In this document: piece by piece, positions 27,141 to 54,497 of the stretch
Layout of the letters: each line of letters starts with the position of its first letter
Position numbering within the stretch: position 1 is the first letter of the stretch
Assembly (NCBI GenBank): GCA_000687655.1
Contig: JHWR01000017.1
Coordinates: forward strand, 1-54,497
Source of the DNA: Lachnospiraceae bacterium YSB2008
GTDB lineage: Bacteria; Bacillota; Clostridia; Lachnospirales; Lachnospiraceae
DNA: 54,497 bases
Reading direction: 5' to 3'
Position numbers and translations under genes: made by a program
Notes under the pieces: model-generated
What the model was told of the DNA's origin: nothing
Databases searched by the model: none
The model's input: only the letters and a program-made list of their open reading frames with translations

Positions 27141-28979
27141 TTAGTGTCTTGGTCTGTTACTGCTCTGTCCGCTTCCACTGCGTGTTCTGTCGCCACTGTT
27201 ACGCGGTCTGCTTCCGCCCTGTCCACTGCTGCTACGCGGTCTGTCGCCACTATTGCGTGGCCTGCTTCCACTCTGCCCACTACTGCTACGCGGTCTGTCG
27301 CCACTGTTACGCGGCCTGCTTCCACTCTGTCCACTACTGCTGCGTGGTCTGTCGCCACTGTTACGTGGCCTGCTTCCGCCCTGTCCGCTTCCACTGCGTG
27401 GTCTCTCTCCGCCGGCGCTGTGAGCTGCCTGCTGCTTCTTTCTGCGTGCCGCCGCACGACGTCTCCTTCTTCTCTCTTCTTCAATCTTCTTCTGAATTAT
27501 GAAGAGTGCCACAATGGCTATAACAAGTACAACAATTAGAACTATCAGAATAGTCAGGAGCGGTGATTTCTTCTCGCCTTCCTTTTTCTCGGTCTTTTTT
27601 CCGAATAAACCTTTCTTACTCTCTGCTTCCTTCTTCTTCGCAGCATCCTGCTCTGAAGCTATCCTGGCAGCTTCTTCCTCAGCCTTCTTCTTGGCATCAA
27701 GTTCAGAAGCAATCCTGTCCTGTTCCTCATAGGAAACAACATTTTCCATCATGTCATTTCCCGTATCATTTCCGACAGTCGTACGATACATTCCAAAATC
27801 AGCACAGCTGTACTCATAATCGTCTGAAACATAGAACCAGCACCACTGCTGGGATACATGCTTTTTATATGCATCGGATGCAACCTCAAGTGCCGTCCTG
27901 CCCTGGAATTTATCAAGCGGCTGACGAAGATCCATCCTTATCTTATTCTCTGACCAGAGATGCAGATAAGTCTTAGGAACATCATAGGTTCCATACTTCT
28001 CAACTGATTCAGGATTGAAGTCTTTTTCATTGGCATGATCAACACTGTCCTGAACAGCATGTGCAAGAAGCATATGTCCTCCATGGCCATACTCTCCATT
28101 TATATCCTGAGTAACAACTACGAGCGGCTGGAATCTACGAACCTGTTCAGTCATAAAGGCCGTAACCTCATCCTGGTTATATACATGCAAAGCGCCTTCA
28201 TAGCTCGTTGCATAGAGATCAGGAAATGGAGCGTTTATAGGATAATGCTTAACTCCGGTCTCCCAGATACCATCAAGCTTCTCATGTTCACGAATTTCAG
28301 CAGCCCCCCAGTAATTGGTCATATATACAAGCTGAACTTTAAGATCCTGCACTCCGGCATATTGTACAAGCACGCCGCCCAGGAAAAGTATTTCGTCATC
28401 AGCATGTGTTGAGAAAACAAGAAAATCTGCTCTGTCACAAGGCGGTTCCCACTTCTGTACTGTACGAGGGAGCTCGCCTGCTCCATACGCGAAGAGGTCG
28501 CACATCTTAGCTTCGGAATTCACATGAATCTTACATTCCTTCGTACCTTCAGGAAGCTCAACGTATTCATGAAGGAATCCGTACTTTCCGTAAGTAGTAT
28601 CCTTGCCATTAACAGAAAGAGTCCACTCTCCCGGCTCAGACTTCCATTTGATATAAAGACACTGAAGTGCAGTCTCAGAGGTAACGGTTATCTCTTCCCC
28701 TGCTGCAAGTGTCATATTTGTATCTGTTGAACTGTCTGTAAGATATCCAGTCGACTGACCGTTAGAGTCATTAAGTGTTACATCTGCCACAGCCGCTTCC
28801 GGAGCTGCTTCTTCTTCAGTAGCATTTTCCTCAGTAGTTGTTTCTTCAGTAGTTGTTTCCTCAGCATATGCATCTATGGTAAACATATTAATAATTGAAA
28901 ATGTAATGATAATGCTGAAAATAACTGTCAGCATTTTTATATAAGTTATTTTTCTTCCTGTTGCACTTGAAGTACACAT
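27141..28979 (-). CDS. Membrane-anchored extracellular PIG-L-type deacetylase with Arg-rich repeat tail
   Basis: A 612-residue protein from ATG 28979. An N-terminal signal segment ends near DAYAEE, followed by a Thr/Glu-rich spacer. A beta-sandwich-like region leads to a PIG-L/LmbE catalytic domain: FSTHADDEILFLGG (zinc-binding H-x-D-D-E) and GEYGHGGHMLLAH. Such enzymes deacetylate GlcNAc-type sugars. Near the C-terminus a Lys/Glu coiled segment precedes a membrane helix (about LLTILIVLIVVLVIAIV), then a run of Arg and five 18-residue repeats of G-D-R-P-R-S-S-S-G-Q type. By topology the catalytic part is outside and the basic tail inside. The tail is unusual for the family. Confidence 0.85.
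   Translation of the reverse strand: MCTSSATGRKITYIKMLTVIFSIIITFSIINMFTIDAYAEETTTEETTTEENATEEEAAPEAAVADVTLNDSNGQSTGYLTDSSTDTNMTLAAGEEITVTSETALQCLYIKWKSEPGEWTLSVNGKDTTYGKYGFLHEYVELPEGTKECKIHVNSEAKMCDLFAYGAGELPRTVQKWEPPCDRADFLVFSTHADDEILFLGGVLVQYAGVQDLKVQLVYMTNYWGAAEIREHEKLDGIWETGVKHYPINAPFPDLYATSYEGALHVYNQDEVTAFMTEQVRRFQPLVVVTQDINGEYGHGGHMLLAHAVQDSVDHANEKDFNPESVEKYGTYDVPKTYLHLWSENKIRMDLRQPLDKFQGRTALEVASDAYKKHVSQQWCWFYVSDDYEYSCADFGMYRTTVGNDTGNDMMENVVSYEEQDRIASELDAKKKAEEEAARIASEQDAAKKKEAESKKGLFGKKTEKKEGEKKSPLLTILIVLIVVLVIAIVALFIIQKKIEEERRRRRRAAARRKKQQAAHSAGGERPRSGSGQGGSRPRNSGDRPRSSSGQSGSRPRNSGDRPRSSSGQSGSRPRNSGDRPRSSSGQGGSRPRNSGDRTRSGSGQSSNRPRH
27144..27413 (-). repeat. Five 54-bp tandem repeats encoding an Arg/Ser/Gly tail
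   Basis: The unit encodes 18 residues of the form GDRPRSSSGQSGSRPRNS. Units 2-4 are nearly identical in DNA; the first and last are diverged. The repeat also opens long meaningless frames on the other strand. Confidence 0.85.
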
Positions 28980-29116
28980 TATACGAGTACCTTTCCTGGA
29001 GTTATTTGAATATGATTTATAATTAAAATTCGTATTTTTACACGCACAAAAACTAAAGCATGCCAAATGCGCATACACGGTTTATTCTACACAGAAAATG
29101 GCGTTTTTTCAATACT

Positions 29117-39053: not shown

Positions 39054-39839
39054 TTAAGCGACTTCTATGGACTTAGTTCTGTATTGCACAGGACTAAGTC
39101 CTTTTAGTTTTTCTTTTATCCTTTTATTGTTGTAATAATCTATATATTCTTTTATGGCGACTATAAGTTCATCTGTTGAATTGAACTTATGGCGATAAAA
39201 CATTTCACTTTTTAACAACCCGAAAAAGTTTTCCATTACAGAATTATCCAAGCAGTTACCTTTTCTGGACATACTTTGAATAATGCCTTTATCTTTTAAT
39301 CTTTTCTGATAAGGCTTCATCTGATACTGCCAGCCCTGGTCTGAGTGGAGGATTGCTCCGGAACTATCAGGAATAATCTCGAATGCTTTGTCTAACATCC
39401 TATTCGTTTGAGCGAATGTCGGTCTTAAAGATAAGTCATACGCAATAATCTCGCCATTATAAAGATCGAGTATTGGTGAAAGATATACCTTCTCATCTTT
39501 AACAGCAAACTCCGTTACATCAGTAACCAGCTTCTTCAAAGGCTCATTCGATTTGAAATCTCTTTTAAGTACATTAGGTGCTACTTTACCGATTTCGCCT
39601 TTATAAGATTTATATTTCTTTCGCCTTATTTCGCATTTAAGACCATTTTTCTTCATGAGCTTTTGAACAAGTTTATGGTTTATAAAATATCCTCTGTTAT
39701 GCATTTCCAAAGTAATTCTTCGATATCCATAACGACCTTTATTTTCGGCGAATATTTGTTTAATAACGAGCTCTGCTTCTTTATGCTTATCGGGTTGCTT
39801 CATCCTTTTTAGGTAGTAATAAAATGTACTTCTTGGCAT
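39054..39839 (-). CDS. IS3/IS150-type transposase catalytic part (OrfB)
   Basis: A 261-residue visible ORF with the DDE integrase core: VTDVTEFAV (first Asp), ILHSDQGWQYQM (second), and NCLDNSVMENFFGLLKSE (Glu). The C-terminal YYNNKRIKEKLKGLSPVQYR is typical of the group. The real N-terminus is upstream of the ATG in the same frame: translation after a -1 shift gives IIDELRHKYRLSDLLAF leading into MPRSTFYYYL, which is the family's conserved start. OrfB is therefore normally made as an OrfAB fusion of about 454 residues. Confidence 0.93.
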   Translation of the reverse strand: MPRSTFYYYLKRMKQPDKHKEAELVIKQIFAENKGRYGYRRITLEMHNRGYFINHKLVQKLMKKNGLKCEIRRKKYKSYKGEIGKVAPNVLKRDFKSNEPLKKLVTDVTEFAVKDEKVYLSPILDLYNGEIIAYDLSLRPTFAQTNRMLDKAFEIIPDSSGAILHSDQGWQYQMKPYQKRLKDKGIIQSMSRKGNCLDNSVMENFFGLLKSEMFYRHKFNSTDELIVAIKEYIDYYNNKRIKEKLKGLSPVQYRTKSIEVA

Positions 39840-39880
39840 ACCGTCAAACGCAAGTAAGTCAGAGAGCCTATATTTATGCC

Positions 39881-40417
39881 TTAATTCGTCGATGATGGTG
39901 GCTCTTTCCCATTCTCTCGATCTATGCGTTCTTGAACTAAGGCTCTCAATTTTTTTAAGTATTCATTCTCCATACGAAGACGTTGAACTTCAGCAATAAG
40001 ATCTTCTTTGGTTTCTTCTGAAAGTTCTTTCTTTTTCGAAACTGTTTTATTCTTTTCCATAGTTTTGGGTGGCCTTCCACGGGACTTCTTCCTAAGCAAG
40101 CCCTCCGACCCCTCCTCATAATAAATACGCTCCCATTTGGCAACATTTGAATGGCTCTTTATTCCAAAATAAGCCGCTGTAGAAACATATGACAAATGGT
40201 TACTATGCATATATTCTACAACCATGATCTTAAAAGCGCCATCATAAGATGCACCACCATTCCTTAATGCCTCCCATCCGTGATTTTCATATAAGTGAAA
40301 CCATTTTTGAACTTGAGCAAAAGACACGCCCATTATTCTTGCACTTTCATGTATAGACATTCCATCCAAGATACGCTGGACTGCTTCGAATTTTTCCTCA
40401 AAAGTATATTTAGACAT
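39881..40417 (-). CDS. IS3/IS150-type OrfA (DNA-binding, helix-turn-helix)
   Basis: A 178-residue protein with two HTH segments (HESARIMGVSFAQVQKWFHLY and TAAYFGIKSHSNVAKWERIYY), a basic stretch (KKSRGRPPK) and a C-terminal leucine-zipper-like helix (EVQRLRMENEYLKKLRALV). It binds the element ends and forms the N-terminal part of the OrfAB transposase. The ribosome site GGGGTG lies within the leader hairpin, five bases before the ATG at 40417. The A7 slippery run lies near the 3' end. Confidence 0.93.
   Translation of the reverse strand: MSKYTFEEKFEAVQRILDGMSIHESARIMGVSFAQVQKWFHLYENHGWEALRNGGASYDGAFKIMVVEYMHSNHLSYVSTAAYFGIKSHSNVAKWERIYYEEGSEGLLRKKSRGRPPKTMEKNKTVSKKKELSEETKEDLIAEVQRLRMENEYLKKLRALVQERIDRENGKEPPSSTN
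39950..39956 (-). other. Programmed -1 frameshift site of the insertion sequence
   Basis: On minus the heptamer A-AAA-AAA is in phase with OrfA (codons TTA AAA AAA TTG). A -1 slip gives AAA ATT GAG and enters the OrfB frame, which is open from there to its stop. A TGA three codons upstream in the -1 frame limits the window. Confidence 0.85.
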
Positions 40418-40518: not shown

Positions 40519-42735
40519 CTACTGTGCTGCTTTTTTACCGATCTTATTTCTGAGTGTGAGCCAGAGTGGTCCGGTTATGAAGATGGACGAGTAAGCTCCA
40601 CATATGATACCGATCATAAGTGTAAGTGTGAATTCCTTGAGTGATGAAACACCAAGAATAAACAGCATGAATATTGTAGCAAATGAGGTTAAGTTCGTAT
40701 AAATGTTACGTGTAATTGTCTGTGAAATGGATGTATTAACAACCTTAGTATATCCTTCAGCATCCTTTGTGAACTGCATTGTCTGCATATTCTCACGGAT
40801 ACGGTCGAATATGATGATAGTTGAGTTGATGGAGTAACCGACAAGTGTAAGCATACATGCAATGAATGTACTGCCGACTGAAAGCCATGCAACCGAGTAA
40901 ACCATGAATACGACCATAACGTCGTGGATAAGTGCTATAACTGCAGATGCACCGAAACGTACATCGTTGAATCGAAGTGCTATGTAGATAAGCATGAGGA
41001 GTGCTGCTATGGAAACTGCAAGGAATGCATCTCTACGCATCTCATGACTTATGGTACTGCTTATGTTCTCTGATTCGATATCTGCCTTATCAAGTCCAAA
41101 CTTCTCAATAAGAGCATTATCAAGTGCTTCTCTCTTATCCTGAGAAAGCTCAGCTGTCTTGAATACTACCTGATTGTTTGCATCAACAACCTGAATCTGA
41201 GTTGTACCAGGATTGATACCTGTTGCTTCTTCTATAACCGGAACAACCTCACTCTCAGCCTCTGCAAGAGTATATGCGTGATCAAATGTAACGGTTGTTG
41301 AAGTACCGCCACTGAACTCAAGTGAGTAATTAAGTGTATTGTTACGTCCTGATATTCCCTTATTTACAAAGAGGAATGCTATACCAAGTACTACTGCAAT
41401 AATTGATATAGAACCTGTAATCTTGAAGTACTTAGCGAAGTTTCTAACCTTAGCTTCCTTTGCTCTTCCGTAAAGCTTTTCATTTGTAACACCAAGCTCA
41501 GCGAACTGCTTAAGAAGGAATCTTGTTATAACAAGTGCTGTGAACATGGACATGATAATACCGAGGATAAGTGTTCTTGCGAAGCCCTTAACCTGACCTG
41601 AACCCATCCAGAGGAGCACGAGACCTGCTATGATAGTTGTAATATTTCCATCGAAGATAGCCGAGAAAGCCTTCTTGAAACCTGACTCAATAGCTGACTT
41701 GACTGACAGTCCATTTCCGATCTCTTCCTTGATACGCGTGAAGATGATGACATTCGCATCGACCGCCATACCTATGGAAAGAAGTATACCTGCAATACCC
41801 GGAAGGGTAAGTGTTATCTTGCATATATTGATGCCGAGAAGTTCAAGAACAACATAGCATCCAAGTGCTAAACAAGCAACAAATCCAGGGAATCTGTATA
41901 CTACGATCATGATAAGGAATATGATAAGTATACCTATAGCTCCTGCTATAAGTGCTGTATGTATAGCATCGTTACCGAGCTTAGCACCAACAACCTGTGA
42001 ACGGAGTTCTGAAAGAGTAAGAGGAAGTGCACCGATCTTGATAGTACTTGCAAGAGTTCTTGCCTCTTCAAGACTTTCCTGTCCATCGATCTGAGCAGAA
42101 CCGCCAAGTATTGCATCCTTAACTGTAGGAGCACTTACAACCTCGCCATCATATATGATATAGAGAGGCTTACCTATATTTGCTGAAGTTGCATCACCAA
42201 ATTTCTTGGCGCCCTCTTCATTGAACTGAAGCTGAACTATGTACTCATTTCCGCCCGTTCCATTTGCCTTGTCGATAGCTGCATCAGCGTTCTCAACATC
42301 TGCACCTGTAAGTGCCGGCTCGTATTCTTCGCCCTGTGAGAACTTGGTGTAGTTATCCTGATCCATGAACATAAGGTCGCCCGGCTTACCGAGTTCTTCA
42401 AGAACCTTGTTTGGATCATACTTAGCTGTATCAAGAGGAATCTCGACAGTTATACGGTCCTGTCCTTCCTTGTATACTTCACCTTCTGTACTATAGTTCT
42501 CAACTCTTCGCTGGAGCTTCTCTATAGTAGTGTCAATCTGGTCTGAAGTTGCATCTTCATCCATAATCTGGTAAGTAATACTTACACCACCCTGAAGGTC
42601 AAGTCCGAGCGCTATGTCTTTCGCACGGCCTGTCTTATTCTCACCAACACCCTGAAGTGCCATATATACAGCACCTGCTACGATGAGGCAGAACAGAAGG
42701 AGGAAGATTACTGCATTTCTCTTTGTCTTCTTCAT
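40519..42735 (-). CDS. secDF: Protein translocase subunit SecDF (fused)
   Basis: A 738-residue fusion of SecD (about 1-440) and SecF (about 440-738) that uses the proton motive force to aid late steps of Sec export. SecD features: DIALGLDLQGGVSITYQI near the N-terminus, then LPGIAGILLSIGMAVDANVIIFTRIKEE in the membrane part. SecF features: NTLNYSLEFSGGTSTTVTF and LTLVGYSINSTIIIFDRIREN. About 12 membrane helices in total. It is the last gene before the IS insertion and lies 88 bases after the SCIFF maturase gene. Its original terminator was disrupted by the element. Confidence 0.95.
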   Translation of the reverse strand: MKKTKRNAVIFLLLFCLIVAGAVYMALQGVGENKTGRAKDIALGLDLQGGVSITYQIMDEDATSDQIDTTIEKLQRRVENYSTEGEVYKEGQDRITVEIPLDTAKYDPNKVLEELGKPGDLMFMDQDNYTKFSQGEEYEPALTGADVENADAAIDKANGTGGNEYIVQLQFNEEGAKKFGDATSANIGKPLYIIYDGEVVSAPTVKDAILGGSAQIDGQESLEEARTLASTIKIGALPLTLSELRSQVVGAKLGNDAIHTALIAGAIGILIIFLIMIVVYRFPGFVACLALGCYVVLELLGINICKITLTLPGIAGILLSIGMAVDANVIIFTRIKEEIGNGLSVKSAIESGFKKAFSAIFDGNITTIIAGLVLLWMGSGQVKGFARTLILGIIMSMFTALVITRFLLKQFAELGVTNEKLYGRAKEAKVRNFAKYFKITGSISIIAVVLGIAFLFVNKGISGRNNTLNYSLEFSGGTSTTVTFDHAYTLAEAESEVVPVIEEATGINPGTTQIQVVDANNQVVFKTAELSQDKREALDNALIEKFGLDKADIESENISSTISHEMRRDAFLAVSIAALLMLIYIALRFNDVRFGASAVIALIHDVMVVFMVYSVAWLSVGSTFIACMLTLVGYSINSTIIIFDRIRENMQTMQFTKDAEGYTKVVNTSISQTITRNIYTNLTSFATIFMLFILGVSSLKEFTLTLMIGIICGAYSSIFITGPLWLTLRNKIGKKAAQ

Positions 42736-44452: not shown

Positions 44453-44602
44453 CTACTTATTTTCACAACTCTGATTTCCTACTGTACAGGATGTCTTGCA
44501 AGCTGACTGGCATGATGTCTGGCACTCGCCGCATCCGCCTTCTGCAGCAGTATTCTGATAAGTAGTTGTCGTGATTGTCTTAATTCTTTCCATGATTTTC
44601 AT
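44453..44602 (-). CDS. scfA: SCIFF ribosomal peptide precursor (six cysteines)
   Basis: A 49-residue peptide. It begins MKIMERIKTITTTTY and ends with the family signature CGECQTSCQSACKTSC followed by TVGNQSCENK. The six cysteines are at 24, 27, 31, 35, 39 and 46. SCIFF peptides are near-universal in Clostridia and are cross-linked by the adjacent radical SAM enzyme; their role is unknown. The ATG at 44602 has AAAGGA about five bases upstream; a second ATG at 44593 is too far from it. A promoter and copy 2 of the structured repeat precede it, and the maturase gene follows after a hairpin. Confidence 0.96.
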   Translation of the reverse strand: MKIMERIKTITTTTYQNTAAEGGCGECQTSCQSACKTSCTVGNQSCENK

Positions 44603-44632: not shown

Positions 44633-44708
44633 TACGCCGCCTGCCCGTACATGCACATCCGTGCATGCACGGCACTTCGGCTACTGGATGATTCCTTCGG
44701 AATCATCC
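44633..44708. repeat. Structured repeat, copy 2 (before scfA)
   Basis: About 76 bases, homologous to 44311-44388. Outer GCCG/CGGC helix, inner hairpin CCCGTxCATGCAC / GTGCATGxACGG, and a hairpin GGATGATTCC / GGAATCATCC. It begins exactly at the stop of the Ig-like surface protein gene. Confidence 0.75.
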
Positions 44709-47700
44709 TAATTCTTCTGATTCCATCTATTCTTATAGATGATAAAGAAGATTATAAGCAGTAACAGTATAGCTGCGATAAGGATTATCAGCCACCACCA
44801 GTTAGCAGTCTTACCGAATGTAAAGGTGTATTCGATGGTCGATACATTTCCTGCCTTATCAACTGCCTCAACCTTAAGAGTATATGTACCCTTTTCGTTG
44901 ATTGTCAGCTTAGCTGTATTGTTTGCTACTGATATAGCCTTGCCGTTCAGAGTAACGCTTCTAAGCATATCCTCATCAAGCTGAAGTGATATATCAATAT
45001 TTCTTTCCTCAAGTATTACTTCACCATTCTCAACACCTGTTACAAGGATTGTAGGTGGCTTAGTATCTACAAGGAATGTGTACTCAGCACTGCTCTCATG
45101 TCCAAGTTCATCAACAGCTTCTATACGAAGTGTATGACTTCCGTCGCTGAGCTCTGTAAGACCGTCGTACTCAACACCATCCATAAGGATAGTTACCTGA
45201 CATACTGTAAGGTCTGTAACAAGATCATCCGGATCCTCATCCCATTTGAACTCTGAGAAAAGTGTTCCGTCATATTCAGGAAGACTCTTGATGATAGGAG
45301 CCTTAGAGTCGATAGTGAAGTGAACCTTCTTATTATCCTCGTTTCCGGCCTTATCTACGGATCTTACATTAATATCATAGATACCGTCTTCCTTGAACTG
45401 CTGAGGAATTGTAGTTACCTTAGCAGCATTTACGTTGTAGCCTGTAAGGTTGAGCTTCTCTACATCGCCGTTGATATCAGTTCTTGTACCTGAAATGCTG
45501 AGCTTGTTTGTTGTATAGAAGTTCTCAGTAACCTTAACTATAAGGTCAACTGCCTTATCTGTTGAATCGTAATTCTTAACACCTGAAAGCTCGATGAGCG
45601 GTGCATTTGCATCTACTATAAATGAATATGTATAGGTTGTATGGTTACCACACTTATCTGTAGCTTCCATCTCAAATCTGTACTCACCGTCTTCTGCAAG
45701 TGCTCTGTTAATTGCTGTTCTTGCTGATGTAGGATTAACCTTAACATCTTCGAAGAGTCTCTCGCCCTGACCATCGACCTTCTTGTAGATCTTACAAGTT
45801 ACACTTGTCATATCCCAGTAGAAGTCTTCTGTTATGATCATTGATGCAGAAACATTCGTTCTTGCTGTTCCACCTGATGCTGCACCGGTAACCTCTAACT
45901 TAGGAGCTACCTTGTCAACACGGAACTCTATAGGACCAAGTGTAGTCTCACGACCTGCTCTGTCGACTACCTTGTATGTTATCTCATAATCAGCATCTGT
46001 TGTATATGGTGTGCTGCCGTTTGAGATATTGCTTGTATCATTGTTAACTGCCTTGTCAGGAGTAGTTCTCTTAACTACTCTTGTGAAGTCATCTTCATCG
46101 AAGTACTTATCATTTGCTGTAACAACAACGTTTCCGTTAACGTTCAGATATCTTACACCTGAACCACCTGATATAGCTGAACCATTCAGAGAAGCTGTAA
46201 TGGTAGGTGCTGTATTATCTACGTTGTAGGTAACAGCCTTGGCTGTAGCCTTCTGACCTGCTCTATCGGTAGTAGCTATTGTTATAGTATGGCTGCCTTC
46301 ATTACTTGTTGAGTAAGAAGCCTTGTAACCAGCCTTACCGTTTATAGTAGCTGCTGACCATGAAACATTAACTCTGTCACCATTATCAGTAACAACTATA
46401 TCATTTGTATCAACGTTATCATCAATAACCTGAAGATCAACGCTTACCTTACCTGCATAATACTGACCATATTCATATGACACACCTGATTCAGGATTGC
46501 TGTATGAGCTATGATACTTCTCAAACTTAGCAGGTTTAGCTGTTGTAATAATTACATCGTTAACAGGCTTTGTGTTATCTACGATGAACTTAGTTGTAAC
46601 TGTATCAAGTGCATTTCCTGCACTATCCTTTGCTGTAAGTGTAAGTGTATATGTGCCGTTAGCAACTGCCTGGCCGATTATCTCACTTACCTTCTTGCTT
46701 GATGAAACAGACTTAACACTGTCTGTAAATCCAGGATTTGTTCCTTCTACAGTCTTTGTTCCAACCGGAGATTCAACTGTAAGCTTATAAGCAGCAATAT
46801 TAAGATTATCCTTAATACCAAATGCTACTACTGGATCACCTTCGTAAACCTTATCGCCTATATTCTCAGCTGTTATACCGCCGACTGTGAAGTTTTCCTT
46901 GGTAGGCTTGTCTTCATCGACATGATAAGTCTTGCTTACTGAATATGTTCTTCCTACATTATCTTCAACATTAATCTTTATAGTCGTTCCACTTACTGAA
47001 CTTGACTGTGCAACAGTAAATGAAGGAATCTCTGTAGGATCACCACTAAGTATATTCTGCTCACCATTACCGGATACGCCACCTGACTGAGTGAGCTTAG
47101 CAGTTTTGAGTCCGGAATAATAGTTTCCATCTTTATCCTTACATGTAATCTTTATTACAAGACTGCTGTACCAGGTATTTTCATCACCGTTAAGTGTTGC
47201 TGTAGGATCGGTAAGATCGACGCTGATTATAGTAATCTTATCAGTAACTGAATAACCATTAACATTTTTAAAATCAGCCGTAATATTTGATCTTGACGCA
47301 GATTCTGTTTCTTCATACTCAACTACAAATACATATTTGTATGGTTCAGTTCCTGTACTTACCAGAGCCTTATCTGCATCTCCATACTCTCCATTTATAT
47401 CTTTAAGAATCATACCATCCTTAGCTTTAGCTCTGATAGTGATGTCTGCACCATCATAATTAAAGGCCGGAAGATCAGACAATTGTAACTTAACATCATT
47501 TGTTGTAACGGTATATTCTACATAAATCTTACTGAGGTCAGTTCTGAATTTTGTTGTTCCCTCTTCATAAGGAGAAAGAACCTGTTCTATTGCCTTGACC
47601 ACAGGCTGAACTGTTATGGTCTCATTTATAAATTTGTACTTATAAAACATGGTTGCAACATTACCAGCTTTATCAGCAACCTCAACTCTATAGGTAATTA

Positions 47701-49525
47701 CATTATTAAAGCAACCACTTGGTTTAGCAGTAAAGTCTTCATTTACCACATAAAGCCCCTGAGTACCCGAATCTTCTGTAGCAGGAACTTCGCTCTCTGT
47801 GCCATTACCTATCTTTCTATAAACATGTAACGAACTAGCATCCAGTGAAGAGCCTCCTGCATCAGCCAGATTGAAATTAATAGAAAATGCTTTTGTGGAT
47901 GTCAGTGGAGCATCTGGTTGCTCTGTTGTAGCATCTTCCTCATTAGCCCCACCTATATTTCCAACACCTGAAGCATCAAGTCCGGTCTGGAAAAGCTTAA
48001 AGTTGCTTATTGTAGGAGCTGCATTATCACGAACTACCGTTACAGTTTTAGGTGTAGCACTAAGTCCAGTGCTGCTCTTTGCAGTAATTTCAATATCGTT
48101 AGCGCCATCGACTACCGGCGTACCAGCAGCAACAGTATACTGATTTCCGCCTTCAGTAACAAGAGTAGCCGGAACCGGATTACCGTCACCATCCTCGCCT
48201 ATTGTAACTCCTGATACCGTTGCTCCGTTTGCATTCGTCGGCATTGTAACCTTTGTTGTGATGAAAACATTATCTACATCTTTCTTGACATAGTATTTTC
48301 CTTCAATCGGAGAAATACTGTTATCATCTGCATCCTTTACGGTAAGTTCATCTGAAATAACTGGTTTAGAATCTCCTACTGATAATGTGATACTACCATC
48401 ATAATCAGGTTCATCATCATCACCTTTTTTACTCTTTATTTTATAAGTAACAGTAACATCACCATTATTAGCTGCATTACCTAAAACAAACTCATAAGTC
48501 CAACCCTTTGTATGAGCAATTGTATCATCACCGGTAGAAGTACTATTCTCAGTTCCATTCCATTTAACAGATGTTGCTGTATCCGAAGTAGTAATACAAA
48601 TCTGTATAGTATCACCTACGTTTACACCACCATATTTTCCTTCGGAAGGAGTTAAAGTGGTTCCTTCCGTACCTACTACTTTTTGAACTGTAGGAGTATC
48701 ATTTATAGGTGCTGCAGGAGTGCTCATCCTTACAGCAGACGGAGATGTTATCGTGCAATCACATACTTTTGTTTCACCTACAAAATATGCCTTATGAAGA
48801 TAATATGTACCATCGCTCTCATAATCCTTGGTCTCATTAACAGAACTCTTGGCTTCACTGTATGATTTAAAATCAGTTTCATCAGTTGTATCACTATTCT
48901 TATCAATACAATACTTTACTTGACCTACAAAAATATTATTCTCATTACCCGAACCAGCTCCCTGCTCCAAATTCCCTTGAAATCTGCTGGCATCTATATC
49001 GTTTTCTTCCCCAACCAGTATCTGTGCATCATAATTTGAATCAAAACTTAAGGTCGGATCATAAAACCCTACAGAAGCCACTGACCAAATATACTCATAG
49101 CATAATTCCTCAGTTACTGCGTCTGGATTAAGCTCCGTAGGATTAGGTTTGGTAACATAAATCTTAATTGAGGTATTAGTACTTGACAGTGTCATGTTCA
49201 ATCCATCTTCACCATCACTGTCTACATATTTAATTCCTGTAAATGGCGACTTTAATCCTTCAGCACTTGCTATCTGGACTACATTTACAGAAACGGCATT
49301 CGTCCCAACAATAAATTTTAATGTCTTTTTTACGACATTTACCGTTTCGCCCTCAACAGTTATGCATGAGTTCAAATCCGAAATAGATGTAGCCGAGTAG
49401 CTAATCGACGGGCTATCTGCCAGAGCCACTTTATCCCTGTCATTGATGTAGAGAATTCCTATGATCATGCACACTGCAAGTATCAGTGCTATGAACCTTG
49501 TCTCTTTTCTGTTTAACCTTTTCAT
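44708..49525 (-). CDS. Large Ig-like-repeat surface protein with C-terminal membrane anchor
   Basis: A 1605-residue exported protein. Signal sequence (about 1-36: MKRLNRKETR then a hydrophobic run, ALADS). The body is a string of bacterial Ig-like domains of about 90-100 residues, many starting or ending with V-D-[KTN]-x-x-P-x-[IL] and containing [VA]-x-D-x-x-G-[NR]; examples are VDKVAPKLEVTG, VDANAPLIELSG and VDTKPPTILVTG. It ends with a membrane helix (about 1575-1597) and a short basic tail (YKNRWNQKN), with no LPxTG. It probably reaches from the cell surface as an adhesin or a structural or ligand-binding stalk. It is the last gene of the kinase operon (15 bases after the T-x-V-L protein). 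Confidence 0.88.
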   Translation of the reverse strand: MKRLNRKETRFIALILAVCMIIGILYINDRDKVALADSPSISYSATSISDLNSCITVEGETVNVVKKTLKFIVGTNAVSVNVVQIASAEGLKSPFTGIKYVDSDGEDGLNMTLSSTNTSIKIYVTKPNPTELNPDAVTEELCYEYIWSVASVGFYDPTLSFDSNYDAQILVGEENDIDASRFQGNLEQGAGSGNENNIFVGQVKYCIDKNSDTTDETDFKSYSEAKSSVNETKDYESDGTYYLHKAYFVGETKVCDCTITSPSAVRMSTPAAPINDTPTVQKVVGTEGTTLTPSEGKYGGVNVGDTIQICITTSDTATSVKWNGTENSTSTGDDTIAHTKGWTYEFVLGNAANNGDVTVTYKIKSKKGDDDEPDYDGSITLSVGDSKPVISDELTVKDADDNSISPIEGKYYVKKDVDNVFITTKVTMPTNANGATVSGVTIGEDGDGNPVPATLVTEGGNQYTVAAGTPVVDGANDIEITAKSSTGLSATPKTVTVVRDNAAPTISNFKLFQTGLDASGVGNIGGANEEDATTEQPDAPLTSTKAFSINFNLADAGGSSLDASSLHVYRKIGNGTESEVPATEDSGTQGLYVVNEDFTAKPSGCFNNVITYRVEVADKAGNVATMFYKYKFINETITVQPVVKAIEQVLSPYEEGTTKFRTDLSKIYVEYTVTTNDVKLQLSDLPAFNYDGADITIRAKAKDGMILKDINGEYGDADKALVSTGTEPYKYVFVVEYEETESASRSNITADFKNVNGYSVTDKITIISVDLTDPTATLNGDENTWYSSLVIKITCKDKDGNYYSGLKTAKLTQSGGVSGNGEQNILSGDPTEIPSFTVAQSSSVSGTTIKINVEDNVGRTYSVSKTYHVDEDKPTKENFTVGGITAENIGDKVYEGDPVVAFGIKDNLNIAAYKLTVESPVGTKTVEGTNPGFTDSVKSVSSSKKVSEIIGQAVANGTYTLTLTAKDSAGNALDTVTTKFIVDNTKPVNDVIITTAKPAKFEKYHSSYSNPESGVSYEYGQYYAGKVSVDLQVIDDNVDTNDIVVTDNGDRVNVSWSAATINGKAGYKASYSTSNEGSHTITIATTDRAGQKATAKAVTYNVDNTAPTITASLNGSAISGGSGVRYLNVNGNVVVTANDKYFDEDDFTRVVKRTTPDKAVNNDTSNISNGSTPYTTDADYEITYKVVDRAGRETTLGPIEFRVDKVAPKLEVTGAASGGTARTNVSASMIITEDFYWDMTSVTCKIYKKVDGQGERLFEDVKVNPTSARTAINRALAEDGEYRFEMEATDKCGNHTTYTYSFIVDANAPLIELSGVKNYDSTDKAVDLIVKVTENFYTTNKLSISGTRTDINGDVEKLNLTGYNVNAAKVTTIPQQFKEDGIYDINVRSVDKAGNEDNKKVHFTIDSKAPIIKSLPEYDGTLFSEFKWDEDPDDLVTDLTVCQVTILMDGVEYDGLTELSDGSHTLRIEAVDELGHESSAEYTFLVDTKPPTILVTGVENGEVILEERNIDISLQLDEDMLRSVTLNGKAISVANNTAKLTINEKGTYTLKVEAVDKAGNVSTIEYTFTFGKTANWWWLIILIAAILLLLIIFFIIYKNRWNQKN

Positions 49526-49540
49526 AGTTTTTTACCTTTC

Positions 49541-50458
49541 TTAAACTAACGTTTCGTCGGTATGAACTACAGTTTCTTTGTAAATAACTACTATCTGTTT
49601 TACCGGGCTGAGCTGATCCGGTAATGGTGCCATACTGTCTGTACTTCTGAGTACGGCTGTTTCTTCAGGGCTGTAACGTCCTATGATGTCATCGCTCGTC
49701 ATGCTTCCGCCTATGGTCTCAACTTCGTCGAGATCCTCGCCTGAAAGAACTTCTGTCTCTGCATCATTTGCAGGAGCATTGCTGCTGTGCACTTCAACTC
49801 CGAGTGCCTTAAGTACGTCTGTCTTCTCTTCGTACTCAGGGTTGAATGCTCTCTTTGCCTTTAATGGATCTTCACCTTCTGAATCTCCTGAAAGAACATC
49901 TGTAGGTGCGTCATAATCACTCATCATGTCGCCTGCTACATTGTCATCGAAGAGAAGATCTGTGTCTGCTTCGCTGTTGTCTGTAAGGACTTCAGTACTT
50001 GTTTCGTCATCCATCATTACAGGTTCTGCACTGAGGAGCTCTGTCTCCTCAACGTCGTCATAAGTTCTCTTGCTTCTTGGTTTAACTGTCTTTGGATCCG
50101 GTTCAACTGATTTGAAGTCCGGAGCCGGAATGTTAGGTTTAACACTCTCGGCTGCTGCCTGAGCTGCAGGCTTTGTTGTTTCTTCGGTGGCATCCTTGCT
50201 TCCGCTGAGCTTATCTGAATCAGCTGCATCTCTTGCGTGGATAGTTCCGCCGAACCTTCTTCTTGACTTGTTTTCAGTGCTCTTTTTCTCGGAGTATCCG
50301 GATTCGCGGATTTCCTGTATAGCTTTCTTCTCTGTTCTACCTGATACAACACCGAACACCTTCGGTATCTTAAGTACAAAGAAGATTATAACTGAAAGTA
50401 TGAGGAAAAGTATCGCGAGGACAAGTCCTCCAATAAAAAGTATATTATATAATCCCAT
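49541..50458 (-). CDS. Membrane protein with repeated T-x-[VL]-L motifs (candidate kinase substrate)
   Basis: A 305-residue protein: one N-terminal membrane helix (about 8-32), a basic stretch (about 40-70), then a long acidic, disordered-looking cytoplasmic tail. The tail contains seven similar sites: ETELL, STEVL, DTDLL, PTDVL, KTDVL, ETEVL and ETAVL, each with Asp/Glu nearby. These look like multisite acceptor or docking motifs for the kinase and FHA protein of the operon: FHA domains bind phosphothreonine and read the +3 residue, here Leu. This function is inference; no catalytic domain is present. It is six bases after the kinase stop. Confidence 0.75.
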   Translation of the reverse strand: MGLYNILFIGGLVLAILFLILSVIIFFVLKIPKVFGVVSGRTEKKAIQEIRESGYSEKKSTENKSRRRFGGTIHARDAADSDKLSGSKDATEETTKPAAQAAAESVKPNIPAPDFKSVEPDPKTVKPRSKRTYDDVEETELLSAEPVMMDDETSTEVLTDNSEADTDLLFDDNVAGDMMSDYDAPTDVLSGDSEGEDPLKAKRAFNPEYEEKTDVLKALGVEVHSSNAPANDAETEVLSGEDLDEVETIGGSMTSDDIIGRYSPEETAVLRSTDSMAPLPDQLSPVKQIVVIYKETVVHTDETLV

Positions 50459-50464
50459 TTCTCA

Positions 50465-52630
50465 TCACTCTCCTTCCTCGTTATTTTCCGCCTCAGGAGA
50501 GGAGTTGTCAGTTGCTTCTGTTGCCTGCTCTTCCGGTTTCTTTTCTTCTTCCGGAGGAGCTGACATCTGTTCCTTCAGCTTGTTCATGACTGAAGAACGT
50601 TTGATCCATGTAGTATTCTCATTTATTCCGGTAACTGTAAGACCTTCATTGTAGAGATCCAAGATTGCCTGCTTGTTGGTCTTGGTCCATTTCTCAGGAT
50701 CCTTGTTACCCTTTTCAAAGGTTTCATACATGAAGTTAAGATGCTCTGCATAAACCTTCGCAACATAGCTGCTTTCCTTACCGAGTGTAGCTTCTGCTTC
50801 TTCGTAGGTAGCTATGGCTTCATCATATTTGCCGAGCTTTCCGTTAAGCTCTGCTATCTTACACATCTTATTTACATATGACTGTGTATATGCCTTAACC
50901 TTAGGATTGTCGCTTTCCTTTGAAACATCAACCTTACCTGTTATCTGATTTACAACGTCCTCACAGGAATTGATTGCAAGGTCATAGTTGATTTCAGGAT
51001 TGTCGAGATTTCCCATCTTTTCATATATAATAGAAAGGCTGTCGCTGAAGCTGTAGTAGAAGTCCTGTGCATCACTTCCTTCGTACTCATTCAGTTCTTC
51101 CATGGCAGTAGCCATAACCTCTTCTGCCTTATTTGGAACTCCCGGTTCATTTATATATGTAGTATAGATGTTACCAAGCACTGCATAATTCGTGAATTTT
51201 TCCTGCTCTGTGTTGGCGTATCTGTTCCTATTATAATCTGCAAATCCATTTACGTTATCGAGAAGACTCGATACATTTACATTTGCACTGGAACGGATCA
51301 TGGATATGTCACCGTAGTAATCGGCAAGCGTTCCATAATCTTCATCCTTAGGATCTACCATCTTGAAGTACTTGGTTGCGGTTGCGTAATCCGACATTTC
51401 AGTATAATACGCAAGTCCCAGTCTGTAAAGCACTTCGTCATTTTTGTCTACGTTTCCGTATCCGTTCTTTATTCTGTTTGCAACTACTGTAAGACCTTCG
51501 TCAAGCTTTAAGAAAGGCTCTCCCTCTCCATTTACATCATTTGATGCATCTATATAAAGGTCTATGAACTGTACATAGGCTGCGGATTCCTTACCATCCA
51601 GATCCATTGCCGTTTTGTACTTATCAGCTGCTTCTACATAATTAGCTGAAGCCTTGAAGTTATTTCCTTCCTCTATATATGAAGCATAATTCTGAGCTGT
51701 CAGCTTGTTTCTTCCTGAAAGACCGATGAGGGAAACAATACCGAAGAGTATAGTAAGAATTGCTGTTGCTCCGAAGAGGGCAAGCTTCTTCTTGTTCTCC
51801 TTCATGTAGCTTTCATCGAGCTCTGTATAATGATCAAGAGCATACATAAGCTCTGAACATGACTGATATCTGTCTGCAGGACTCGGCTGAGTACATTTCA
51901 GAATGATCTTCTCAAGACCTGTTGAAAGTGATGGGTTCCACTCACGGATAGGCTTCATTTCATATGGTGGATCGTTAGGATTCTTACCTGTTACCATATG
52001 ATACATGGTTGCGCCGAGGTTGTAGATATCAGTACGGGCATCTGTCTTATATATACCACGTCCCTTATCATCACCGAACTGCTCAGGTGCAGCATAACCT
52101 CTTGTACCGAGAGCCGTTGTATCTGCTATATTCTCTGCCTTGAACTCTTTAGCTGTACCGAAGTCGATGAGCTTAACATCTCCTTCAGGCTTAAGCATAA
52201 CGTTCGAAGGCTTCATATCTCTATATATAATAGGAGGAGTCATGTTATGCAGATAGTCGAGAGCTGATGCCAGCTGACGTCCCCATGCTATAACATCTTC
52301 CTGAGGCTGTGCGCCTTCTTCCTTCAGTACGTCTGCAAGGTTTGTACCTTCTATGAAGTCCATGACAACGTAGATAGTACCTTTGTTGTTTATGATATCA
52401 ACTATACGAGGAAGAACCGGATGGTCAACGTCCTTAAGGATGTTAGCCTCTCGCTCAAGTCCCTTAAGAAGTGTCTTAGTAGACTTGGTTCCGTCATTCT
52501 TCATCTCCTTGACAGCCCACTGCTTGTTCAGTCGGTTATCCATAGCAAGATAAACTATAGACATACCGCCACGGCCGATCTCTTTCAGTATTTCATATTT
52601 TCCGTCAAGTACGGTTCCTTCTTTAGTCAT
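50465..52630 (-). CDS. Transmembrane Ser/Thr protein kinase (Hanks type) with extracellular TPR-like domain
   Basis: A 721-residue kinase. Catalytic residues: glycine loop IGRGGMSIVYLA (about 18-29), Lys41 (AVKEM), catalytic Asp138 in YRDMKPSNVML, DFG at 156-158, and activation loop TTALGTRGYAAPEQ (about 171-183). A membrane helix lies at about 282-304. The outer part (about 315-690) is made of TPR-like helix pairs (ASANYVEAADKYKTAMDLDG, YDEAIATYEEAEATL). The tail is acidic. TPR rather than PASTA outer domains suggests a protein ligand, not peptidoglycan. It sits between the PP2C and the T-x-V-L protein genes. Confidence 0.94.
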   Translation of the reverse strand: MTKEGTVLDGKYEILKEIGRGGMSIVYLAMDNRLNKQWAVKEMKNDGTKSTKTLLKGLEREANILKDVDHPVLPRIVDIINNKGTIYVVMDFIEGTNLADVLKEEGAQPQEDVIAWGRQLASALDYLHNMTPPIIYRDMKPSNVMLKPEGDVKLIDFGTAKEFKAENIADTTALGTRGYAAPEQFGDDKGRGIYKTDARTDIYNLGATMYHMVTGKNPNDPPYEMKPIREWNPSLSTGLEKIILKCTQPSPADRYQSCSELMYALDHYTELDESYMKENKKKLALFGATAILTILFGIVSLIGLSGRNKLTAQNYASYIEEGNNFKASANYVEAADKYKTAMDLDGKESAAYVQFIDLYIDASNDVNGEGEPFLKLDEGLTVVANRIKNGYGNVDKNDEVLYRLGLAYYTEMSDYATATKYFKMVDPKDEDYGTLADYYGDISMIRSSANVNVSSLLDNVNGFADYNRNRYANTEQEKFTNYAVLGNIYTTYINEPGVPNKAEEVMATAMEELNEYEGSDAQDFYYSFSDSLSIIYEKMGNLDNPEINYDLAINSCEDVVNQITGKVDVSKESDNPKVKAYTQSYVNKMCKIAELNGKLGKYDEAIATYEEAEATLGKESSYVAKVYAEHLNFMYETFEKGNKDPEKWTKTNKQAILDLYNEGLTVTGINENTTWIKRSSVMNKLKEQMSAPPEEEKKPEEQATEATDNSSPEAENNEEGE

Positions 52631-52646
52631 TTGAATGAATTTCCTT

Positions 52647-53417
52647 TTAGAATGTTCTGATTACAGCAACAGTAATATTATCTGTTTCACGTCTGCTCTT
52701 AACGAGGTCTGTTAAGTATTTGCATCCGTATTCCATTTTCTCTTCATCAGTTGCAACGTTCGGTCCAAGATAATCCATAACCTCTTCGTCTGATACCTGG
52801 TGTCTGAATCCGTCAGAACAGAGAAGGTATATAGCATTCTTCTTCATCTGTCCTCTGAGGAAATCAGGCTCAACTACCTGAGATGCACCTACGCACTGAA
52901 GAAGTACGCTTCGTCTCGGATCTACCTTTGCTTCTTCCTCGGTCATCCTCCCAAGAGATACTTCTCTGTGTACGAATGTCTGATCCTCTGTAACCTGCTT
53001 GGTTGTATCTGTCATCTCATATATACGGCTGTCACCAACATGAACAACATAGTATACATCCTGGAGCATAAGTATTGCAGAAACTGTTGTTCCCAGCATG
53101 AGATTATGAACTGCTCCATAGCTTCCAAGTCTGTTGTTCTGGAACTGGATTATATTATTCCAGTCATTTCTAAGTGATGCCGGTGTGAAGGTACCATCAC
53201 AAACCTGCTGTGTAAATGTATTGTCAAACCAATCGCAGAAGGCATTTATTACTTCCTTGCTGGCGAGCTCGCCTTTCTCAAGACCACCCATTCCGTCACA
53301 AACTATTGCAAATGTAACTTTTCCTATAGGTGAATCTATGATTCTGATTGCAAGGGAATCCTGATTTGTCTTCTTTCTTATTCCTATATCAGTATGATAT
53401 GCTGCTGTAAAATCCAT
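52647..53417 (-). CDS. PP2C-family Ser/Thr phosphatase
   Basis: A 256-residue phosphatase, the usual counterpart of Hanks kinases. Motifs: HTDIGIRKKTNQDS at the N-terminus, VCDGMGGLEKGELAS (metal-binding Asp-Gly), VVHVGDSRIYEM, and LLCSDGFRHQVSDEEV, ending with RRETDNITVAVIRTF. All metal ligands are present. No membrane segment. It follows the FHA gene by 31 bases and precedes the kinase by 16, so the three are one operon. Confidence 0.95.
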   Translation of the reverse strand: MDFTAAYHTDIGIRKKTNQDSLAIRIIDSPIGKVTFAIVCDGMGGLEKGELASKEVINAFCDWFDNTFTQQVCDGTFTPASLRNDWNNIIQFQNNRLGSYGAVHNLMLGTTVSAILMLQDVYYVVHVGDSRIYEMTDTTKQVTEDQTFVHREVSLGRMTEEEAKVDPRRSVLLQCVGASQVVEPDFLRGQMKKNAIYLLCSDGFRHQVSDEEVMDYLGPNVATDEEKMEYGCKYLTDLVKSRRETDNITVAVIRTF

Positions 53418-53448
53418 GAAATCTTAATCCTTTCAAAACGGCCGATTC

Positions 53449-54497
53449 TTAGTCTTCTCTTCTGAGCTTGAATATGAATTCCTCGCCGCCCATCCAAACT
53501 ACGGTTCCATTCTTGAGAAGAACTTCCTTACCCGGTTCGATCTTCTCTCCGTCTACGTATGTTCCGTTTGTTGAGTTATTATCAACTATATAATTAACAC
53601 CATTCTTCTGAGCAATTATCGCATGAACACGGCTTACTGCTGTATTCTCCTTGATTGTGAAGTCAGCCTGTGAGTTTGACTTACCAATCTTGAAGTCAGG
53701 ATGTGTGAAGAATATCTTCTCCTGAGTCTTTGTTCTTATGAAGTGTGGTTCCGGCTTCTTTGTGAAGTCTACCGGACCTGCCTGTGCAGGCTGTGCTGCA
53801 GGTGCTGGTGCAGGTGTCGGCTGTGGTACCGGTGGTACAGGAGCGCTTGTAAGCTCAGATGTATTGTTCTTTGTATCTTCTACAGGTGCCTGTGGTGCTA
53901 CAGGAGCTTCAGGTGCTTCCGGTGCTTTCGGCATCTCCGGTGCCTTTGGTGCTTCCGGTGCAGGTGTTGGTGCCTGTGGTGCTACAGGAGCCTGTGGTGC
54001 TACAGGAGCCTGTGGTGCTACAGGAGCCTGCGGTGCTACAGGAGCCTGCGGTGCTGCTGGCGCTGCCGGCTGTGGTGCAACCGGTGTTGGTACTACAGGT
54101 GGTACAGGTGCCTGCGGTGCTGCCGGAGCTTCCGGTGCTTTCGGCATTTCCGGTGTCTGCGGTGCTGCCGGTGCCTGCGGTGCTACTGGAGCTTCAGGTG
54201 CCTTTGGCATCTCTGGTGCTTTTGGTGCCTCAGGTGCCTTTGGCATCTCCGGTGCCTTCGGCATTTCTGGTGCTTTTGGCATCTCTGGAGCCTTTGGCAT
54301 TTCAGGTGCTTTTGGCATTTCAGGCGCCTTTGGAGCTTCTGGTGCCTTTGGCATTTCAGGTCCATTCATTGGTGGAACGCCAGGTCCACCCTGTGGTCCG
54401 TTCTGTGGTGGCATTCCAGGTCCGCCCTGTGGTCCACCCATCGGGCCGTTTGGTCCCATCGGTCTTCCCTGCTGTGGCATGCCCTGTGGTGGCATTC
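53449..54497 (-). CDS. FHA-domain protein with Pro/Ala-rich repeat region (5' end outside window)
   Basis: The last about 349 residues of an FHA protein; the gene reads past the window end. The C-terminal FHA domain (about residues 250-345 of the visible part) has FKIGKSNSQADF (GR/K motif), NTAVSRVHAII (S-R-x-H) and VDNNSTNGTYVDG, so pThr binding should be intact. Before it lies a long Pro-rich segment with PEMPKAPEAPK and VAPQAP repeats, and at the very front a Gly/Pro/Met-rich region. The region is disordered and may contact the cell surface or other proteins. First gene seen in the kinase operon. Confidence 0.9.
   Translation of the reverse strand, partial: MPPQGMPQQGRPMGPNGPMGGPQGGPGMPPQNGPQGGPGVPPMNGPEMPKAPEAPKAPEMPKAPEMPKAPEMPKAPEMPKAPEMPKAPEAPKAPEMPKAPEAPVAPQAPAAPQTPEMPKAPEAPAAPQAPVPPVVPTPVAPQPAAPAAPQAPVAPQAPVAPQAPVAPQAPVAPQAPTPAPEAPKAPEMPKAPEAPEAPVAPQAPVEDTKNNTSELTSAPVPPVPQPTPAPAPAAQPAQAGPVDFTKKPEPHFIRTKTQEKIFFTHPDFKIGKSNSQADFTIKENTAVSRVHAIIAQKNGVNYIVDNNSTNGTYVDGEKIEPGKEVLLKNGTVVWMGGEEFIFKLRRED
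53881..54360 (-). repeat. Pro/Ala-rich low-complexity repeats within the FHA gene
   Basis: Short units encoding E-M-P-K-A-P and V-A-P-Q-A-P are repeated many times. They produce spurious frames and will cause length variation by slippage. Confidence 0.85.

Follow-up and report, generated by a model that had tools for sequence, protein, structure and literature searches.

A gene cassette for a kinase, a phosphatase, FHA proteins, and a giant Ig-like surface protein in Lachnospiraceae that seems not to need a type VII secretion system

Results

The cassette at the end of the window

The window, i.e., the whole stretch of DNA analyzed here, is a complete contig of 54,497 bases from Lachnospiraceae bacterium YSB2008. 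This report deals with a cassette of five minus-strand genes at its end, which encode an FHA protein, a PP2C phosphatase, a transmembrane (TM) Ser/Thr kinase, a small membrane protein with a motif-rich tail, and a giant immunoglobulin (Ig)-like surface protein. The gene order, the intergenic gaps of 31, 16, 6, and 15 bases, and the domains had been described in an original prediction made from the sequence alone, and an open reading frame (ORF) check, Pfam and TIGR matches, and hydropathy analyses confirmed this layout, with gene lengths that matched the description. As the window is the whole contig and ends at 54,497, only part of the FHA gene is present, and the true start of this gene differs from the listed one (54495). 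Another contig of the same genome, C10, carries at its left edge an N-terminal piece of this FHA protein (FHA2), a second FHA protein (FHA1), and mltG, in an order that is intact in relatives; the two contigs were compared, not joined. The features are given below, with Tse names referring to components of T7SSe, a kind of type VII secretion system (T7SS) taken up in the Discussion.

44708..49525, minus strand: giant Ig-like surface protein, TseI-like, 1605 residues, with an N-terminal signal segment and a C-terminal TM segment (Pfam, hydropathy; homologue at the same place in 25/25 loci)
49541..50458, minus strand: membrane protein, TseK/TseH-like, 305 residues, with an N-terminal TM segment (11-29) and a phospho-acceptor-like tail with seven T-x-[VL]-L sites ("tail protein")
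49649..50044, minus strand: region with all seven T-x-[VL]-L sites
50033-50044, 49985-49996, 49952-49963, 49892-49903, 49811-49822, 49745-49756, and 49649-49660, minus strand: the individual T-x-[VL]-L sites
49544..49600, minus strand: conserved C-terminal element of the tail protein, ...YKETVVHTDETLV; most orthologues end similarly, and some show drift
50465..52630, minus strand: transmembrane Ser/Thr kinase, TseD-like, long form, with kinase domain 12-255, TM segment 284-302, and an outer TPR-like domain (Pfam, catalytic motifs, AlphaFold2)
52647..53417, minus strand: PP2C phosphatase, TseF-like (domain matches and motifs)
53449..54495, minus strand: FHA2, TseJ-like, C-terminal part only, with a Pro/Ala-rich linker and the FHA domain; truncated at the contig end
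Contig C10, 3-1043: N-terminal FHA2 piece (L110)
Contig C10, 1141-2760: FHA1
Contig C10, 2798-3880: mltG

Conservation of the cassette

The genus set comprised 61 genomes, of which 31 were of high quality (completeness of 90% or more, contamination of 5% or less). The long form of the kinase (E<=1e-150) was present in 56 of the 61 genomes and in all 31 high-quality ones. The five genomes without a match (G013, G033, G031, G006, and G021) all lie outside the high-quality set, and three of them have the T7SS ATPase EssC. For comparison of gene order, we used 25 loci, namely the window, 19 relatives from the genus, and representatives of five other genera. The latter were chosen from 347 sampled family genomes, 71 of which matched at E<=1e-70, by taking those with a near full-length match.

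FHA2, PP2C, kinase, tail protein, and Ig protein were encoded in the same order and on one strand in 25/25 loci. Upstream, 18 of these loci have mltG and 17 have a second FHA protein that is separate from FHA2; wherever mltG was not found (seven loci), the FHA2 frame is at or near the end of the available DNA. A scan of named genomes yielded 41 loci, each in a Lachnospiraceae, Eubacterium, or Clostridiales record. Of these, 33 hold all five genes, and they kept the order without exception (33/33), with organisms partly shared with the 25 loci. The original prediction had named chance adjacency as the alternative to a linked system and co-occurrence in a fixed order as the way to decide; because the five-gene order is constant in 25/25 loci, chance adjacency is excluded.

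We also examined 12 more distant cassettes, picked by kinase or DUF6382 matches. All 12 contain a homologue of the tail protein and 8 contain an Ig protein (one with only E 0.001, one being the reference itself), while two are cut by contig ends and two are without it. In a tree of the PP2C and kinase domains, the 25 stand-alone cassettes grouped in a single clade (support 100/100) that excluded the other 12. Related cassettes with a shorter kinase lie near EssC (L009, L127, and L163), beside Tad/Flp-type genes, or elsewhere. DUF6382 was tried and rejected as a guide to further stand-alone cassettes: among the matches listed, most viewed loci had a DUF6382-FHA gene beside apparent Tad-type genes, as judged by eye. 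An LXG protein with a GHH nuclease domain is encoded at L171:14590-16506 (plus strand), near a cassette that has two FHA proteins and lacks a neighboring Ig gene.

Type VII secretion genes in the carrier genomes

An EssC-type ATPase (E<=1e-20) was detected in 17/61 genus genomes and in 8/31 of the high-quality genomes, leaving 23/31 without a match. WXG100 proteins (E<=0.001) were detected in 21/61 and 11/31 genomes, respectively, leaving 20/31 without a match. Neither was found in 20 of the 31 high-quality genomes, among them the single-contig genome G005. The available flanks of the 41 long-kinase loci contained no EssC match at E<1e-8, with three short and weak matches of 56-59 residues. 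The EssC model TIGR03928 matched in 58/61 genomes at E<=0.001, and its cut-off was passed in 14/61; most of the matches below the cut-off (at about positions 469-661) were rejected, being read as FtsK/SpoIIIE-type ATPases, and some were fragments of EssC genes (G186 and G195). Among the five other genera with the long kinase, G264, G320, and G299 have EssC, and G238 and G064 have none. As EssC and WXG100 are missing in most kinase-bearing genomes, the module seems able to do without a T7SS.

The genome of the window does contain a T7SS locus, on contig C3, and this locus has a paralogous set consisting of a PP2C, a kinase, a tail protein of 186 residues (three T-x-[VL]-L sites), and an Ig-like protein of 1746 residues. 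Also encoded there are a second kinase, a LytTR regulator, an EssC ATPase (TIGR03928, 1110 bits), and five WXG100 matches, of which two stay below the cut-off of the family. The WXG100 matches of this genome are on C3 only, with none on C17. The FHA domain of the C3 paralogue is apparently the end of a trypsin-like protease with FIVAR domains, and not of the DUF6382-FHA kind (L010:2-1639 and L009:19570-19899, minus strand; the frame spans both).

Neighborhood of mltG

Exactly one full-length YceG/MltG is encoded in each of 58/61 genus genomes, beside shorter matches. The kinase gene and mltG lie on the same contig in 31 of the 54 genomes that have both, and in all 31 cases they are at most 7.9 kb apart. 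FHA2 sits between these two genes, and its linkers consist of long low-complexity repeats rich in Pro, Ala, and Met (such as APEMPK, PPQGMP, and PQQPYMDP) that differ between species; the kinase gene and mltG are on different contigs in 23/54 genomes.

The tail protein and its repeated sites

The 305-residue tail protein had no match above cut-off among Pfam and TIGR-type models, and hydropathy places its single TM segment at 11-29. The original prediction had drawn attention to its repeated T-x-[VL]-L sites; with T-x-[VIL]-L as the pattern, the tail protein of the window has 7 sites, compared with 0.24 expected, and 0/2000 shuffles reached 7. All 25 tail proteins have 4-10 sites, compared with 0.14-0.43 expected by shuffling. 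The tail proteins of the 12 other cassettes have 1-6 sites each; those of L164, L167, L168, L169, and L170 have only 1-2, a number reached by 2-12% of the shuffles. The residues preceding the site Thr are mostly acidic, and most tail proteins share a C-terminal HT-[DE]-E-like element. The tail family had 22.4 T-[DETAS]-[VIL]-L sites per 1000 residues; the densities of the six other families were 0.95 (FHA1), 0.69 (MltG), 0.51 (kinase), 0.25 (Ig protein), 0.15 (PP2C), and 0 (FHA2). Sites of the T-x-[VIL]-L type suit recognition by FHA domains, which favors a hydrophobic residue at +3.

Kinase, phosphatase, and Ig protein

The kinase matches Pfam Pkinase with E 1.9e-47, and its catalytic Lys, the YRDMKP[SA]N loop, and the DFG...APEQ region are conserved in 25/25 loci. 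Hydropathy indicates one TM segment (284-302), behind which follows an outer domain that is predicted to be all-helical (AlphaFold2 pLDDT, i.e., predicted local distance difference test score, of 95.6). A fold search with this domain yielded generic TPR matches and gave no hint at a ligand, and the TPR matches of the sequence were all below cut-offs. The phosphatase matches PP2C_2 (E 3.1e-9) and an Stp1-like model (E 1.5e-49; 169 bits, under the cut-off of 230). Its DGMGG and GDSR motifs are present in 25/25 loci and the DN[IV]T pattern in 18/25. The Ig protein matches Pfam Big_13 (E 1.5e-24) and also Big_3_3 and Big_3_2; its N-terminal segment and the C-terminal TM segment (1578-1596) are assigned by hydropathy only. 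In the two closest relatives, the best-segment identity of the Ig protein is 40.9% and 50.7%.

FHA proteins and the DUF6382 domain

The truncated FHA2 of the window matches Pfam FHA with E 1.2e-15. FHA1 on contig C10 has DUF6382 at the N terminus (E 8.7e-12) and FHA at the C terminus (E 6e-15), which is the TseJ architecture. The N-terminal domain of FHA2 has no Pfam match itself, and a profile comparison found it homologous to the DUF6382 domain of FHA1 (hhalign 99.7%). For this, 15 of 22 FHA2 proteins were aligned, as three lacked the full domain and four were dropped as near-copies or because of offset starts; the FHA1 alignment used 20 of 23 proteins (L188, L200, and L202 dropped), and another alignment comprised the window and 26 of the 41 loci. 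The FHA core GK...SRxH...STN is present in 16/17 FHA1 proteins (the exception has GV) and in 23/25 FHA2 proteins, where the misses are a frame broken in the repeat region (L049) and a GR...SSN variant (L160).

Structure prediction points to a pseudokinase-like fold for the DUF6382 domain of FHA1. The best AlphaFold2 model (pLDDT 87) matched the MviN domain Rv3910 (E 1.3e-5) and YukC/EssB (6z0f, E 2.1e-5) in Foldseek, with template modelling (TM) scores of 0.57-0.62 and a root-mean-square deviation (rmsd) above 6 A. At the presumed DFG position, which was assigned by eye, the sequence PVE is invariant (20/20). A profile search with the domain found no solved pseudokinase; the one chain at E<=1 was a retron protein (E 0.59).

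Discussion

We interpret the genes as a T7SSe-type phospho-signalling and envelope cassette that lost its secretion motor or never had one, and that is tied by gene order to the only full-length MltG of the genome; we give this view a probability of about 0.6. It builds on the gene content, order, and conservation of the cassette, the enrichment of the tail motif, the conserved kinase, FHA, and phosphatase motifs, and the lack of an EssC match in most carrier genomes. As the secretion motor is missing in most genomes, the set probably switches something other than secretion at the cell surface of one genus of gut bacteria.

The following mechanism would fit these data. The Ig protein may reach into or across the cell wall and, together with the TPR-like outer domain of the kinase, could report the envelope state. 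The kinase would then act on the tail protein, phosphorylating its repeated acidic T-x-[VIL]-L sites, and the two pseudokinase-like adaptors would dock on the phosphothreonines with their FHA domains, giving rise to a multivalent patch under the membrane. PP2C would remove the tail phosphorylation and thus reset the switch. The gene order suggests that the output most likely would be the control of peptidoglycan synthesis through or around MltG. The original prediction had already proposed an outside-in system of this kind, which is supported in part; its idea that the FHA protein reads a phosphorylated tail appears well motivated at the sequence level by the motif enrichment and the conserved kinase and FHA motifs; the sensing, the phosphorylation, the FHA binding, and the output we infer. 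Being confined to one contig, its five-gene account lacked mltG and the other FHA protein, and it did not include the likeness to T7SSe or the domains that resemble pseudokinases.

Several observations weigh against this interpretation. The link to MltG is drawn solely from gene order, and the kinase gene and mltG are found on different contigs in 23 of the 54 genomes with both. In L162, mltG is present, but there is a single FHA protein, and mltG is separated from the cassette by two other genes. As the cytosolic stub of MltG is mostly short and has no conserved Thr (with start codons that are uncertain there), direct phosphorylation of this stub, as it occurs in Enterococcus, is not supported and was rejected as a mechanism. 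In nearly all FHA domains, the usual Gly-Arg is replaced by Gly-Lys, and the core pattern fails in 1/17 FHA1 and 2/25 FHA2 proteins. The full N-terminal domain is missing in 3/22 FHA2 frames (L181, L200, and L204). With regard to the DUF6382 fold, the best Foldseek E-value belongs to TraF of a type IV system, and true kinases match too; among the 50 matches listed, the TM-scores (query) are 0.40-0.63 with an rmsd of 5-12 A, and the five AlphaFold2 models disagree (pLDDT 87 for the best, 67-81 for the others). The absence of EssC was judged mostly from draft genomes.

The components of T7SSe include the kinase TseD, the phosphatase TseF, the giant Ig-like TseI, TseJ with DUF6382 and FHA domains, and TseH and TseK with a single TM segment and unstructured cytosolic parts (Garrett, Higginson and Palmer 2024; PMC11217815). 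The kinases, phosphatases, and FHA proteins of T7SSe were found by gene neighborhood (PMC11217815). The cassette resembles this set in having a transmembrane kinase, a PPM phosphatase, an Ig giant with signal peptide and C-terminal TM segment, a DUF6382-FHA protein, and a small TM protein, a likeness to T7SSe/T7SSj that concerns architecture and did not involve reference Tse sequences. The single TM segment of the tail protein fits TseK/TseH, compared by description only. The cassette differs in that the TsxC/EssC ATPase and WXG100 were found neither in the locus nor in most genomes, and in that mltG and a second DUF6382-type FHA protein are added; the 4-10 T-x-[VIL]-L sites have no mention in the account of T7SSe considered here.

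In mycobacteria, the phosphorylated pseudokinase domain of MviN recruits FhaA, which restrains wall synthesis (PMC12599244). This chain from the kinase PknB via a pseudokinase-bearing membrane protein to an FHA reader that controls peptidoglycan synthesis resembles our proposal, and the DUF6382 model matches the MviN domain Rv3910; in our case, however, one protein combines the pseudokinase-like and FHA domains, and the proposed phospho-tail, with its multiple sites, is a membrane protein of its own. In T7SSb, the pseudokinase YukC/EssB binds the FHA domains of the ATPase (PMC9600267). In the PpkA-Fha pathway of the Agrobacterium type VI secretion system (T6SS), the inner-membrane protein TssL is phosphorylated at Thr14 and bound by Fha (PMC3953482). 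A kinase that phosphorylates a membrane protein whose phosphothreonine is bound by Fha is what we propose here from the genes alone, but with many candidate sites instead of one and with no secretion machine known (no search for T6SS genes was made). Finally, the PASTA kinase IreK of Enterococcus faecalis phosphorylates the cytosolic part of MltG in the context of wall stress (PMC12369325). A Ser/Thr kinase is likewise linked with MltG here, by gene order, but the window kinase has TPR-like repeats and not PASTA repeats, and the MltG stub lacks a conserved Thr. A full-text search of the open-licence literature did not find the stand-alone module in titles or abstract openings.

A more far-reaching idea, which we put at somewhat below even odds, is that of a vertically inherited core envelope complex, a "headless" type VII-like machine, in which a condensate-like scaffold senses the wall through the Ig protein and directs the sole full-length MltG, while T7SSe and Tad systems borrowed or lent the module. 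The scaffold of this tentative complex would be formed by the multi-site T-x-[VIL]-L tail and the two Pro-rich or acidic pseudokinase-FHA adaptors, and it would be membrane-anchored and switched by phosphorylation.

It is unlikely, but deserves consideration, that the Ig protein is itself the output, i.e., an adhesin whose assembly is controlled by the kinase, tail, and FHA set, with mltG as a growth-linked neighbor. The Ig protein is long and variable, and a related cassette adjoins Tad/Flp-type pilus genes in L164 (T2SSF, prepilin peptidase, and DUF5702) and probably in L168 (DUF5702 and a TadE match under cut-off) and L170 (pilus-type neighbors by eye only). However, the adjacency to mltG is constant in the 31/31 same-contig cases, and a Pfam run of five flanking ORFs of L041 and L042, outside mltG and the cassette, revealed no pilus family, in the absence of a systematic pilus search.

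Still less probable is an auxiliary T7SSe part, whose products would join a secretion machine with EssC and WXG100 encoded elsewhere in the genome. The gene set of T7SSe is matched by architecture, the C3 locus of the window's genome offers EssC and WXG100, and EssC is found in 3/5 other genera with the long kinase. This explanation is disfavored because kinase-bearing genomes lack EssC (23/31 high-quality genomes, with 20/31 lacking both EssC and WXG100); moreover, the C3 locus has its own paralogous cassette, and no EssC match at E<1e-8 lies in the available flanks of the 41 loci.

We regard it as very improbable that the genes are an ordinary wall-stress kinase-phosphatase pair of the PrkC/Stp type beside a passenger surface gene. 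The resemblance of PP2C to the Stp1 model, although under cut-off, and the action of the PASTA kinase IreK on MltG in Enterococcus faecalis (PMC12369325) would fit such a pair. However, the kinase has no Pfam PASTA match and scores 216 bits with the PASTA-kinase model, compared with a cut-off of 450, matching in the kinase domain only; a canonical PASTA kinase and its PP2C gene are separately present on contig C8 of the same genome, and the five-gene order in 25/25 loci contradicts a passenger gene. An anti-phage defence operon can practically be dismissed, as the matches of the kinase to PADLOC kinases such as PD-T4-6 and mad6 are generic and, among the matches listed, on or about the kinase domain, while none of the FHA, Ig, and tail proteins has a PADLOC match at E<=1e-10 and PP2C has one, to a candidate model, and the cassette is found in every high-quality genus genome and in one clade.

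A naturally ATPase-free version of such cassettes sets signalling apart from secretion, and the repeated acidic T-x-[VIL]-L tail is a concrete candidate substrate. What such cassettes sense and switch thereby becomes directly testable, and probable isolates that carry the cassette are Eubacterium ruminantium FB3002 and the Lachnospiraceae bacteria AC2029, AC2031, and NE2001.

Further features of the window

A promoter scan gave 31 sites compared with 23.8 expected, and a terminator scan gave 7 compared with 6.1 expected. Just downstream of the Ig gene, a SCIFF ranthipeptide gene (TIGR03973, E 1e-21) is located at 44453-44602 on the minus strand, accompanied by a radical SAM maturase gene (TIGR03974; 42824-44335) and, as judged by eye, a SecDF-like gene (40519-42735). 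Among the available flanks of the 41 related loci, the SCIFF maturase was found in 13 and SecDF in 23. Between the gene of an AAA protein and secDF, an apparent pair of insertion-sequence transposase ORFs was noted by eye at 39054-40417 on the minus strand. Also by eye, the protein encoded at 27141-29078 on the minus strand has a C-terminal repeat tail rich in Arg, Ser, and Gly.

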